In this document: one piece after another, positions 7,235-11,015 of the stretch | How the letters are laid out: each line of letters opens with the position of its first letter | Position numbering within the stretch: position 1 is the stretch's first letter | Source: a virus | DNA length: 34,420 nt | IMG/VR virus record: IMGVR_UViG_3300045910_000157 | Location: 1 to 34,420 of that record | Direction: 5' to 3' (one strand) | Notes under the pieces: generated by a model | Databases searched by the model: none | Seen by the model: the letters and a program-made list of their open reading frames with translations, nothing else | What the model was told of the DNA's origin: nothing | Made by a program: the position numbers and the translations under genes

Positions 7235-8650
7235 TCATGGGGTGGCTGGATTGGACGCCAGTTCCTTGAGCCACTTGGAATACTGCGTGAGGAAGTCCTG
7301 CCAGTTGACGGGACCCATCTCCATCTGAGCATCGCTTTTGGCCAGGCTCTTGTTAGCGGAGAGCAACGCCAAACATACGCTGATGATTCCCGGACGGTTC
7401 GGACCATCCATCAACGTTTGAATGTGTTCATGCCGATTGTTCAGAACGATGGAGATGCATCGGCGTTGATCCATCACATCACCGACGCGTCCGTCATCGA
7501 AATCGCCGTAGGAGACCGTCACACCCCTGGATTCTCCGGGCCGCTTGCTGCCGGATCGCTCGACCACATTCCGCTCAAAATCGGTATGAACCCGAGCGGC
7601 CTCCTCGACTTTTCTGGGTGTCCCTCGAGGTTCAACTTTTCCGTGGTTTTCTCGTGGACCGCGCAAGGCCCGCCCCTGCTTGAGACCAGTCACGCCTGCC
7701 AGAATCGCCTCGATCTCCTGAAGCTTGATCTGTTCGCCCAGCACCGCCGCACGGTCCATCAAGTCGGAGCAATCCTCCTCCAGTGATGCGTAGAGCCAGC
7801 GAACCGCCGGGCAATCGTCCAGGCCGTCCTTGTGAACCAATAAGGGCCAGCGTCCCACCAGTTCCACGTAGGCCATGAATCCCGTGGACGGAGGCCGTCC
7901 ATTGCATGGCTCGGAATTCTCGGCGACGATCCGATGCTCGTAAGCGAAGATGAAAGGGCGTCGCGAGTTGCATTCAACCAGCCCTGCTCTGACCCGGTAG
8001 CCGAACTCCGCGCCGTCATCGTCCGAGAGGGAATTGCTCGCGGTGATCAGCGACTCCATCGCCGGTAACGTCCACGGTTCGATCTGCACATCTTCTCCGT
8101 ACCAGCGCAACTCAATCACCCGACGTGACTGGATAGCCGGCGAAAAGTTGAAGCTTAGAGGACGAATCAGCTCATCCTTGCGCCGACGAGCGGGCCGCAA
8201 CTGTGAGATGCAAATGGATGTCCCCTTGCCGCTCGTGGTCGTGTCATCCGCCGAGACCTTTTGCTCCCACTTGCCGCTGCTATAGATTTCGTTCCAATCC
8301 ACATCGGCCTTCCGCATCACGCCATCGTGCACGGTCTGGATGCTGGCCAGGTCTCCGAGGGAGGTTGCCGCATGTTTGAGGCCGGCCCCGTATCGGCCCA
8401 ACCGCGTGGTCGGCGTGCGCTTGTGGCCGCCCAGCATGATCATCTTTTGGATGTCCGCGCAGCCATTCCCATCATCCACCACCGCGATGCAGTTGCTATC
8501 AACCCGGATCGTGACTTTCGTTGCGCCCTGGTCGAAAGCGTTGTCAACGAGTTCCGAGATAGCTGCCGGAAAGGGCAGGGCATTGGCCATCAACATGTGC
8601 TTCAGATAGTGAGGATCGGGAACGATGCTGATGACTTCTTCGGTTTTCAT
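7235..8650 (-). CDS. GHKL-type ATPase (MORC/Hsp90-like ATP-binding)
   Basis: A 471-aa protein starting MKTEEVISIVPDPHYLK at 8650, in an ATGA overlap with the ParB-like gene; the much longer open frame upstream is a shadow of that gene. All Bergerat-fold motifs are visible: N box AISELVDNAFDQGA (E33, D36, N37), G1 box VVDDGNG (57-63) and G2 box GRYGAGLKHAAT (85-96). The rest (residues 150-471) has beta-rich and charged parts (GPRENHGKVEPRGTPRKVEEAA) without a histidine kinase domain, so this is a MORC/MutL/Hsp90-like rather than a sensor kinase. Such ATPases remodel DNA or protein complexes; the target here is unknown. Pairing with ParB suggests a joint DNA-bound role. Confidence 0.82.
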   Translation of the reverse strand: MKTEEVISIVPDPHYLKHMLMANALPFPAAISELVDNAFDQGATKVTIRVDSNCIAVVDDGNGCADIQKMIMLGGHKRTPTTRLGRYGAGLKHAATSLGDLASIQTVHDGVMRKADVDWNEIYSSGKWEQKVSADDTTTSGKGTSICISQLRPARRRKDELIRPLSFNFSPAIQSRRVIELRWYGEDVQIEPWTLPAMESLITASNSLSDDDGAEFGYRVRAGLVECNSRRPFIFAYEHRIVAENSEPCNGRPPSTGFMAYVELVGRWPLLVHKDGLDDCPAVRWLYASLEEDCSDLMDRAAVLGEQIKLQEIEAILAGVTGLKQGRALRGPRENHGKVEPRGTPRKVEEAARVHTDFERNVVERSGSKRPGESRGVTVSYGDFDDGRVGDVMDQRRCISIVLNNRHEHIQTLMDGPNRPGIISVCLALLSANKSLAKSDAQMEMGPVNWQDFLTQYSKWLKELASNPATP

Positions 8651-9411
8651 GCGATGGATTCGAGAATGATCCGCTTGACCTCGGGGTGATCGGAGACGGG
8701 AAAGCAATCGAGCAATCGGTTGAACTTGCTCAGAACACGGTCGCGCAACGGCTTTGGAGCTTTGGGCTTTCGGCCGGCAGGCTTCTGCTGAACCTTCTTG
8801 CTGGCGTCCTTGAGTTTCACCTTGCCCGCCGCGACTTGCTGCATGGTGTCCGCGGGCAGCTCGCCCCGGTCCACCGCCTTGCTTACCGCAATCGCCTGCC
8901 CGGCTTTGTGACGTGAGGTCTTCGCCCTGGCCGCCAGCCGGCCCGCCGCGGAGTTGGCGGCCTTGGCCTTCAGGTCGCGGGAAAACGGTGGACCTGAATT
9001 CGGGTCCACCGTTTTGTTGCCTCGGCCAGGTCCTCCTTCGTTGCCCGCCTTGAACTGGCCGGCAGCTTTCCGGGCCGCGAGGGATTGCTGCTCCGACCAA
9101 TCATCCGATTGCCGAGCGATGGCTACCCGCTGGTCTTCGGTCAAGTGGCGACGATCCAGGTTCTTGACGAGAATCCAATCCGCCACCGGAATCTTGATTC
9201 GCAGCGTGGACCACTGGACAAAGCGCGGCTCAATCGAAGCGGCTTCGCACGCCGCTAGACGGTTGCGGCCATCCAGCAGCACATCGCCTTCTAAAACGAT
9301 GGGTTCCTGCAAGCCGCAGGATCGAATTGAATCCACCAGATCATTCCAGGCAGGCGAACCGCGTTCCAACAAAGGGAAGAATTCCGCGACGGGATGAACC
9401 GTGTACTTCAT
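8647..9411 (-). CDS. ParB-like nuclease/CTPase-fold protein
   Basis: A 254-aa protein with a ParB/Srx-fold N-terminus: VHPVAEFFPLL, LVDSIRSCGLQEPIVLEGDVLLDGRNRLAACEAA, where DGRNRLAA corresponds to the family's (D/E)GxxRxxA motif. Residues ~90-200 are basic and helical (HLTEDQRVAIARQ, SLAARKAAGQF) like the ParB DNA-binding region, then a Lys/Pro-rich stretch (KKVQQKPAGRKPKAPKP) and a short C-terminal helix. Members bind DNA and switch with CTP, or act as nucleases or modifiers; which applies is not visible. It starts with GAGAACC just before ATG and is coupled to the ATPase gene. Confidence 0.82.
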   Translation of the reverse strand: MKYTVHPVAEFFPLLERGSPAWNDLVDSIRSCGLQEPIVLEGDVLLDGRNRLAACEAASIEPRFVQWSTLRIKIPVADWILVKNLDRRHLTEDQRVAIARQSDDWSEQQSLAARKAAGQFKAGNEGGPGRGNKTVDPNSGPPFSRDLKAKAANSAAGRLAARAKTSRHKAGQAIAVSKAVDRGELPADTMQQVAAGKVKLKDASKKVQQKPAGRKPKAPKPLRDRVLSKFNRLLDCFPVSDHPEVKRIILESIA

Positions 9412-9428: not shown

Positions 9429-9623
9429 TCAGGCCGTGCGGAGAAAATCGGGGTGGACGGACGCAAACAACAGGGCGCGTTCAACGGTGAGCGTCCTGGT
9501 CCAACCAGCGCGTCTGGAGATGTCCCCGATGGCTTGATCGGCGTGGTGGGACAGCTTGAAATTTTGAAGCCTTCCCTTCGTGGATGGTCTGCCGACTTTC
9601 TGTTTTTGGAGTCGTCGCTTCAC
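9429..9623 (-). CDS. Small ribbon-helix-helix-like DNA-binding protein
   Basis: A 64-aa basic protein (GTG start at 9623). After a Lys/Arg-rich arm, GRLQNFKLSHHADQAIGDISRRAGWTRTLTVERALLFA has the strand-helix-helix pattern of RHH repressors. It resembles the N-terminus of the divergently transcribed protein at 9731 (LQNFKLS against LSNFKLS), so the pair may be opposing regulators, as Cro and CI are in lambda; that role is inferred. A promoter-like -10 (9631-9636) lies so close that the message would be almost leaderless. It is the first gene of the minus-strand early operon. Confidence 0.65.
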   Translation of the reverse strand: MKRRLQKQKVGRPSTKGRLQNFKLSHHADQAIGDISRRAGWTRTLTVERALLFASVHPDFLRTA

Positions 9624-9730
9624 GTGCGCAAAGATAACGAAGTGTCTTTACCAATCAACAACCGTTTACCCCTTGCGTTAATTTCGTATAGACGTATATT
9701 CGCCGCGCCCTTCAGAAATCGGGCGATTGC
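9624..9730. promoter_or_regulatory. Divergent promoter/operator region of the RHH pair
   Basis: Rightward: TTGCGT (9673-9678), 16-bp spacer, TATATT (9695-9700), giving a start about 24-30 bases before the ATG at 9731. Leftward: TTGATT (complement of 9653-9658), 16-bp spacer, TATCTT (complement of 9631-9636), leading into the GTG at 9623. A direct repeat CGTATA at 9685-9690 and 9693-9698 overlaps the rightward -10; RHH proteins commonly bind short direct repeats with such spacing. This is the least GC-rich stretch nearby. Promoter calls are by eye. Confidence 0.5.
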
Positions 9731-10216
9731 ATGAGAACCAAGAAGACGAAACTCAGTAACTTCAAACTGTCGGACGCGGCGCGCGGGGCGTTAGAATCAG
9801 ACACGGTCCGCACTGGCAAAACGATGACGCAGGTCCTTGAAGATCGGCTGCTATGGCAGCGCGTTTTCAACGAAGACGCCGAGGCCGTGCTTGACGGACT
9901 GCGCCGCAAAACCGGCCTGCCTACGTACAAGATCGTGGAAGTCTGCATACTCAAAGCTGCCAAGGCTGACGTGCGACTCCCTTTTGAAGCGACCCCCACA
10001 AATGAGCCTGCCCTTGGTGGCCAACGCCACAATGGCATTGTGGGTGTCAGGGGTTCGAGCCCCCTCGACTCCACCAATCCAGCCGCGGAACGGAAAACGC
10101 ATGGCGCGAAGGTGCCAGGAGTGCCCTTTCGCCCGAGCATTTTTCGAAGCGGGAAAGGGGAACCACAACGGATCAGCAACGTCGCTTACGCGGAGGCATT
10201 GCCCCTCGCTGCGTGA
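9731..10216 (+). CDS. RHH regulator whose reading frame contains attP
   Basis: A 161-aa ORF. Residues 1-95 look like a genuine ribbon-helix-helix regulator (LSNFKLSDAARGALESDTVRTGKTMTQVLEDRLL, then a helical part to KAAKADVRLPF). Residues ~99-115 are encoded by the tRNA-Ala-like attP core, and residues 116-161 by phage DNA beyond it, ending AYAEALPLAA. In a prophage the recombination would replace everything after the core with host-encoded residues. The -LAA end resembles ClpXP/ssrA-type degrons. The layout matches the integration-dependent repressors described for mycobacteriophages. The RHH domain is fairly clear; the repressor role and degron are inference. The tail overlaps the proposed integrase N-terminus in another frame. 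Confidence 0.7.
   Translation: MRTKKTKLSNFKLSDAARGALESDTVRTGKTMTQVLEDRLLWQRVFNEDAEAVLDGLRRKTGLPTYKIVEVCILKAAKADVRLPFEATPTNEPALGGQRHNGIVGVRGSSPLDSTNPAAERKTHGAKVPGVPFRPSIFRSGKGEPQRISNVAYAEALPLAA
10026..10076 (+). other. attP core: 3' portion of tRNA-Ala(GGC)
   Basis: Anticodon arm: CCACA (10027-10031) pairs with TGTGG (10039-10043) around a seven-base loop with U33 (10033) and anticodon GGC (10034-10036). Variable GTGTC follows, then the T arm AGGGG/CCCCT (10049-10053, 10061-10065) with loop TTCGAGC, the acceptor strand CGACTCC (10066-10072) and ACCA (10073-10076). T at acceptor position 70 fits the G3:U70 identity pair of tRNA-Ala. No 5' acceptor strand or normal D arm is present, so this is not a working tRNA gene but the segment that would restore the host gene on integration. 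Confidence 0.85.
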
Positions 10217-11015
10217 GGCGGTCGCGGAATTCCTGTCGGTGCGAGCAAGGAGCGGTTTGCGGGAGTCTTACATGCGCAGCCTGCGCCAGTATTTGTCCGC
10301 CTTCGCCCGGGCCCTCGAGGAACGGCCCGTCAACCGGATCGGCCTGCCGGAGCTCGAGGCGTGGTTTGGCGGTCGCCAGGAGGCCTCGAGCGCGGAGGCC
10401 TCGAATCGTGGCCGCCTGTCAGCTTTCTTCGGATTTGCCGTCCGGCGCGGCTGGATCGCCGGAAACCCTGTAAGCCTGCTGGAGCCCATCCACATCCACC
10501 GGCAGGAGCCGGAGGTCCTCACCGTGGACGAATGCCGGAAGGCGTTGGATTGGACCCGGGATTACGCGCCCCGCTGCCTCGGCCTGCTGGTCGTGCTGCT
10601 GTTCCTTGGCCTCCGCCCGCAGGAAGCGCGGCGGCTCGGGGCCGAGGCGTTCCGTGACGGCGCGGTGGTGGTGGACTCGGCGGCCAGCAAGATTCACCGG
10701 CGCCGGATCGTTCCGGTGAACGCCACGGCTGCCGCCTGGCTGGCTGTTGCCGGCCCCTGGCGGCCCGTAGGCGCATCTTCAGCGCGGAGATGGCTGAGGA
10801 GACTGCGCGAGGCCATCGGTCGCGCTGCGTGGCCGCAGGACGTGCTGCGGCACTCGTACATCAGCTATGCGCTTGCCACTGGCCAGCCGGTGCATCAGGT
10901 GGCTGAGCTGGCCGGGAATTCGCCGGGGATCATCGGGCGCCACTACCGCGCCCTGGTGACGCGCGAGGAGGCGGCGCGCTTCTGGGGAATCCGTCCGGCA
11001 CATCAGTTGCTTTAG
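10101..11015 (+). CDS. int: Tyrosine-type site-specific integrase
   Basis: I propose the ATG at 10101 (304 aa), 25 bases after the attP core; the frame is open further upstream but through attP. Residues 38-125 form the core-binding SAM-like domain (LREAVAEFLSVRARSGLRES...ERPVNRIGLPELEAWF). The catalytic domain shows R172 (LGLRPQEARRL), K197 (SKIHRRRIVPV), R250-H251 (QDVLRHSYISYAL), N273 (LAGNSPG) and the nucleophile Y282 (GRHYRAL). Box II has D247 where many members have His, and N273 replaces the usual His/Trp, variants I believe also occur in related integrases. It would recombine attP with a host tRNA-Ala gene. N-terminal CxxC (CQEC) is of uncertain meaning. Confidence 0.88.
   Translation: MARRCQECPFARAFFEAGKGNHNGSATSLTRRHCPSLREAVAEFLSVRARSGLRESYMRSLRQYLSAFARALEERPVNRIGLPELEAWFGGRQEASSAEASNRGRLSAFFGFAVRRGWIAGNPVSLLEPIHIHRQEPEVLTVDECRKALDWTRDYAPRCLGLLVVLLFLGLRPQEARRLGAEAFRDGAVVVDSAASKIHRRRIVPVNATAAAWLAVAGPWRPVGASSARRWLRRLREAIGRAAWPQDVLRHSYISYALATGQPVHQVAELAGNSPGIIGRHYRALVTREEAARFWGIRPAHQLL

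Follow-up and report, generated by a model that had tools for sequence, protein, structure and literature searches.

A candidate integration-dependent immunity switch on an RHH regulator in a phage of Verrucomicrobiota

Analysis of a viral stretch of 34,420 nt (IMGVR_UViG_3300045910_000157, positions 1 to 34,420; hereafter the window) placed the attP core of the phage inside the open reading frame of a ribbon-helix-helix (RHH) regulator whose viral form ends in -LAA. As the best explanation, with a probability of roughly 0.5, we propose that the window is a temperate, circularising phage of Verrucomicrobiota and that its immunity and integration module acts as an integration-dependent switch on the RHH regulator. 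The features of this module are collected in Table 1.

Table 1. Features of the putative immunity and integration module and its surroundings (window coordinates).
Feature	Position	Strand	Remarks
ParB-like gene, 3' of the leftward RHH gene	8647..9411	-	family a guess from sequence
Divergent second RHH gene, Cro-like position	9429..9623	-	first gene of leftward operon; four-relative alignment
Intergenic control region, flanked by the divergent RHH genes	9624..9730	.	by position
RHH regulator ORF, viral form	9731..10216	+	161 aa, ends -LAA
Folded DNA-binding part, residues 1-80	9731..9970	+	extended N-terminus and helices, AlphaFold2 model
tRNA-Ala(GGC) 3' half forming the attP core, from anticodon stem through CCA	10027..10076	+	RHH residues 99-115
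Probable crossover CCACAATGGCAT	10027..10038	+	common to 5'-half attP sites of G003, L026, L059
Tyrosine integrase	10101..11015	+	304 aa from ATG 10101; overlaps RHH tail in another frame
Leu-Ala-Ala codons, C-terminal ssrA-like ClpXP tag motif, viral form	10205..10213	+	sequence; host ssrA tags

A contig from another metagenome (IMGVR_UViG_3300045977_000290), more than 99.9% identical to the window, spans the junction between the window's end and start, and the genome is therefore circular; a 14-bp exact terminal repeat is present at the window ends. Since the molecule is circular, the tRNA half that it carries does not mark the border of an integrated copy, and the site is a real, intact attP. 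Elsewhere in the genome, a 300-nt direct repeat (94% identical) occupies positions 1111-1410 and 2465-2764, the second copy lying inside a DUF7694 gene.

The attP core is a 50-nt tRNA segment, CCACAATGGCATTGTGGGTGTCAGGGGTTCGAGCCCCCTCGACTCCACCA, in frame with the RHH ORF. On the circular genome it falls entirely within that ORF, as the original prediction had claimed, its start lying one base from the position 10026 given there. Combined with the 5' half from the related phage G003, the core completes a perfect 76-nt tRNA-Ala(GGC) fold with the G3-U70 identity pair (ARAGORN), and its matches among Verrucomicrobiota tRNA-Ala(GGC) genes reached E=8e-11. It is therefore not a chance match. A search pattern made of D-arm and anticodon-arm, allowing up to two mismatches, was matched by 5 of the 388 sampled Verrucomicrobiota genomes. 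A tmRNA, the best Rfam match of the core (14 bits), was considered as att target and rejected on the anticodon arm, the 5-nt variable loop and the ARAGORN result for the hybrid, which gives tRNA-Ala(GGC) instead. The segment CCACAATGGCAT is common to 3'-half and 5'-half att sites and for this reason marks the probable place of crossover. Relatives and tRNA-Ala(GGC) matches both point to Verrucomicrobiota as hosts, which supports the host range first suggested. A search for the prophage form in host genomes had been proposed as a check; neither an exact attB nor an exact 3' half of the window core was found in the genomes searched, the order-level search for the exact host site covering a single genome, and no integrated copy of the window phage was recovered.

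The adjoining tyrosine integrase matched phrog_1 (E=1.9e-20), with the catalytic residues R172, K197, R250-H251 and Y282 conserved. Its start codon lies 25 nt past the core, and its frame also extends without a stop across the core, inside which an alternative ATG occurs at 10032. The integrase family was present in 123 of 388 Verrucomicrobiota genomes, often adjoining a tRNA or tmRNA gene. Two integrated members beside tRNA-Arg (G028 and G250) carry a direct duplication that covers the tRNA from its anticodon stem up to the 3' end, and by sequence comparison the window core has this same geometry; no ORF with RHH character was found across attR in these two genomes, both of a different integrase branch. 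The window integrase is without the N-terminal region of the longer relatives L014 and L027, which would be expected if its attP has no arm sites; BPs-type integration does without arm-type sites and a recombination directionality factor. Its sister in the integrase tree is L013 (support 0.87). A single match was found in INPHARED, Akkermansia phage Chambord (27% identity), whose integrase gene likewise adjoins a tRNA 3' end but which differs in its tRNA-Leu site and longer integrase, and in which no RHH gene was seen across att. Among other loci of the family, the integrase of L130 (genome G311) lies beside a tmRNA gene, and the tRNA-Ala anticodon arm of that genome equals that of the window core. 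Locus L140 (G250:C49, about 128177-134865) is a 6.7-kb island between tRNA-Arg duplications that carries a family integrase and a serine resolvase-like gene adjoining attR.

The regulator ORF starts MRTKKTKLSNFKLSDAARGALES and has the C-terminus ...AEALPLAA. Its AlphaFold2 model reached pLDDT 76-87 for residues 11-40 and about 40 beyond residue 80; residues 80-161 are predicted to be disordered, and the attP core falls within this tail. Foldseek matched the model best to RHH proteins, nearly without exception and with weak E-values, while a family profile search returned P22 Mnt (E=0.079) and ORF E73 as top matches. A Pfam search of the window protein gave no match; the RHH members of L013 match RHH_3. 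The hallmark of the fold, an extended N-terminus followed by two helices, was recovered by AlphaFold2 and Foldseek for both regulators, weakly for the rightward and well for the leftward one, so that fold comparison and family profile bear out an RHH-type regulator, with weak E-values for the rightward protein. Assigned purely by position, the rightward RHH protein is most likely the lysogeny repressor.

The model of the leftward protein superimposes on CopG at 0.5-0.6 Å over 33-35 residues, a fold comparison that convincingly suggests an RHH protein. Operator-like repeats are present in the control region between the two RHH genes of G003, L013 and L026; none were detected in that of the window. 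Behind the leftward RHH gene, the ParB-like gene had no Pfam or NCBIfam match and could not be aligned with its L026 counterpart. It contains a 34-nt near-perfect palindrome (8982-9015), near which the almost identical contig breaks. A further early-operon gene (7235-8659, minus strand) encodes a HATPase domain and weakly resembles BbrUII-type restriction enzymes and sacsin-type ATPases, which makes a role in anti-defence or defence possible.

To follow the regulator across an integration site, its frame was read into 34 Verrucomicrobiota tRNA-Ala(GGC) genes and their flanks. No stop interrupted it within the tRNA half at any of the 34, the modelled product measured 116-230 aa (median 127 aa) wherever the frame came to an end, and -LAA was lost at 33 of the 34 sites; an exchange of the C-terminus on integration, as first envisaged, is thus predicted at these modelled sites. 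Between the RHH domain and position 10214 the frame contains no stop, and therefore translation of the RHH gene on the circle always reads into -LAA. Given translation, the sequence implies that the viral form must end in -LAA and that the integrated form must lack this end, unless the host happens to supply an -AA. As the fold is confined to residues 1-80 and disorder follows, the exchange of the tail would spare the DNA-binding domain.

We hypothesize that crossover by the integrase takes place within the tRNA-Ala(GGC) anticodon arm, the tRNA 3' half of the phage being part of the RHH frame. In the circular phage form, the 161-aa protein with its -LAA end would be marked for ClpXP. Integration would lead the frame through the host tRNA half into the host flank and to another stop, so that the tag would be gone and the RHH domain kept. 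The stabilised protein could then maintain the lysogen, giving an integration-dependent switch as in mycobacteriophage BPs, based on an RHH protein whose -AA tag is older. We infer the repressor role, the proteolysis and the stabilisation.

The C-terminal -LAA, taken from the outset for an ssrA-type motif, is identical to the end of 27 of 30 Verrucomicrobiota ssrA tags (ARAGORN), most of which read -ALAA. Relatives were recovered by profile scans and tRNA-pattern scans, single-query scans with the window RHH protein or the window integrase having returned none. Among the eight rightward RHH proteins compared, four end in -AA (window LAA, L013 AAA, G003 KAA, L026 VAA) and four do not (L059 GGK, L045 QAK, L055 PAK, L046 KGR). 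The background, drawn from four of these phages, comprised 141 long ORFs without mutual overlap, and the single -AA ending among them was that of the L026 RHH protein itself. The enrichment has P of about 2.5e-9 for 4/4 and about 5e-5 for 4/8 at p=0.03; the sample is small, and because the positives came first in the comparison, 4/8 is the fairer figure. The leftward RHH proteins of L026 and L059 also end in -AA. By these comparisons, the -AA of RHH proteins in this phage group looks like a real, selected feature, independent of att capture, because two relatives, G003 and L026, have it upstream of att, where it would survive integration.

The order leftward RHH gene, control region, rightward RHH gene and integrase is common to the window, G003, L013, L026 and L059. 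In G003 (circular, with a 127-nt end repeat), L026 (123-nt end repeat) and L059, att lies between the rightward RHH gene and the integrase and corresponds to the 5' half of tRNA-Ala, not the 3' half (L011:8885-8923 for G003; L026:2882-2919). At such sites, the sequences indicate, the phage provides the 5' part of the tRNA, and the rebuilt gene would lie on the side of the prophage that bears the RHH gene. The rightward RHH stop precedes the tRNA half by about 85 nt (G003) or 43 nt (L026). L045, L055 and L046 carry a 3' half, ahead of which the RHH-like gene stops. Altogether, the RHH gene ends upstream of att in six relatives, and integration therefore cannot alter it there. Such a stop before attP had been named as evidence against the switch if seen in prophages of relatives; here it was seen in phage forms. 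The integration-dependent switch fits the layout of the window and is not supported as a general rule. In the sister L013, the RHH frame runs 98 nt into the integrase gene; neither an Rfam search nor a comparison against 388 genomes located the att site of this phage. An RHH frame through att is demonstrated in the window alone, with L013 a possible second case.

A different overlap was observed in five phages with integrases of this family, in which the tRNA-Ala 3' half lies inside the 5' end of the integrase gene (L045:8471, L055:2261, L046:11399, L053:6053, L054:6762). The integrase start codon is just upstream of the core, as is AGGAGG in L046-type phages, and integration would strip the integrase of its start region. 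This would be a bacterial parallel to the SSV-type integrases of archaeal viruses, in which a coding frame extends across attP and is interrupted when the virus integrates. L045 and L046 resemble that system in having att in the integrase 5' end; in the window, by contrast, the frame of interest is that of the regulator, though the integrase frame, too, continues through the core.

Several of these observations weigh against the switch, and some of them favour a competing account that we consider rather unlikely. Here the RHH protein would be constitutively unstable through its conserved -AA, and the attP overlap would be a bystander that arose after an old stop was lost, the frame reaching another -LAA by chance; the tail would change on integration, and the switch would be independent of that change. 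In its favour, the tag ahead of att in G003 and L026 need not await integration to be useful, other lineages have the RHH gene entirely upstream of att, and an RHH frame open through the core up to its stop is unremarkable (P about 0.26, not significant alone). Against this account, the window protein ends again in -LAA past att, and that of L013 in -LAAA overlapping the integrase gene, an outcome unlikely without selection for the tag, and exchange of the tail is a mechanical consequence of integration, used or unused. The switch itself is further weakened by the RHH proteins of L059, L045, L055 and L046, which have no -AA, by the repressor's identification from position, and by the negative searches for a prophage and an exact attB. 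Weighing both sides, the original prediction of a regulator switched by its internal attP stays plausible yet becomes narrower: the tag is more widely shared, and its coupling to attP is local to the window lineage, perhaps including L013.

It is improbable that the rightward RHH protein is instead a short-lived establishment regulator or excision factor acting with the integrase (CII- or Xis-like), confined by its tag to early infection while the leftward RHH or another protein represses: its gene is directly upstream of the integrase, two leftward RHH proteins are tagged as well and a constitutively tagged protein as in G003 and L026 would be a poor maintenance repressor, but the divergent pair has the rep/cro layout of BPs and other phages (PMC4557955), and loss of the tag at integration would work against a factor meant to be transient.

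RHH regulators in an immunity-like phage region are familiar from P22 Arc and Mnt, the latter being the top solved-structure profile match here, with a weak E-value; to our knowledge, the genes of both are without attP and not integration-dependent. Integration-dependent immunity has been described in mycobacteriophage BPs and in clusters G, I, N and P; BPs combines a rep-int operon, attP within rep, a divergent cro, a tRNA site and an -LAA tag (PMC4557955; PMC9262239). In immunity of this type the short prophage form of the repressor is stable and gives immunity, which the long form does not. The proposed switch shares with it a regulator and integrase in the same orientation with a divergent partner across a control region (in the window and in G003, L013 and L026), an attP core inside the regulator ORF (in the window, that of a putative repressor), a tRNA attB with the tRNA 3' end on the phage (here tRNA-Ala(GGC)), a viral regulator ending in -LAA or similar (here ssrA-like by motif) and a tyrosine integrase. 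The layout thus matches, and the one listed feature that fails is the integrase tag: BPs Int is tagged, whereas the window integrase ends in -HQLL, without an ssrA-like tag, as is also the case in G003, L026, L013 and L059, and this counts against the switch. The window phage differs further in having RHH proteins at both regulator positions, in its host phylum, Verrucomicrobiota, in its 50-nt core from the anticodon arm to CCA, in a predicted prophage protein that usually extends some residues beyond the core instead of ending at its edge, and in relatives that carry the tag without att capture.

The open-access papers found on integration-dependent immunity deal mostly with actinobacterial phages, and no RHH case appears in any of them. 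Tentatively, at somewhat less than even odds, we suggest that such immunity arose independently on an RHH protein in Verrucomicrobiota phages, the -AA coming first and attP being captured upstream of it later, in the branch to which the window and L013 belong. If true, this would be a second origin of integration-dependent immunity, with a different regulator fold and in a distant phylum. Relatives with the tag and without att capture would then show steps in the evolution of the switch and make it testable, and uncultured Verrucomicrobiota phages would gain a concrete, testable lysogeny switch.
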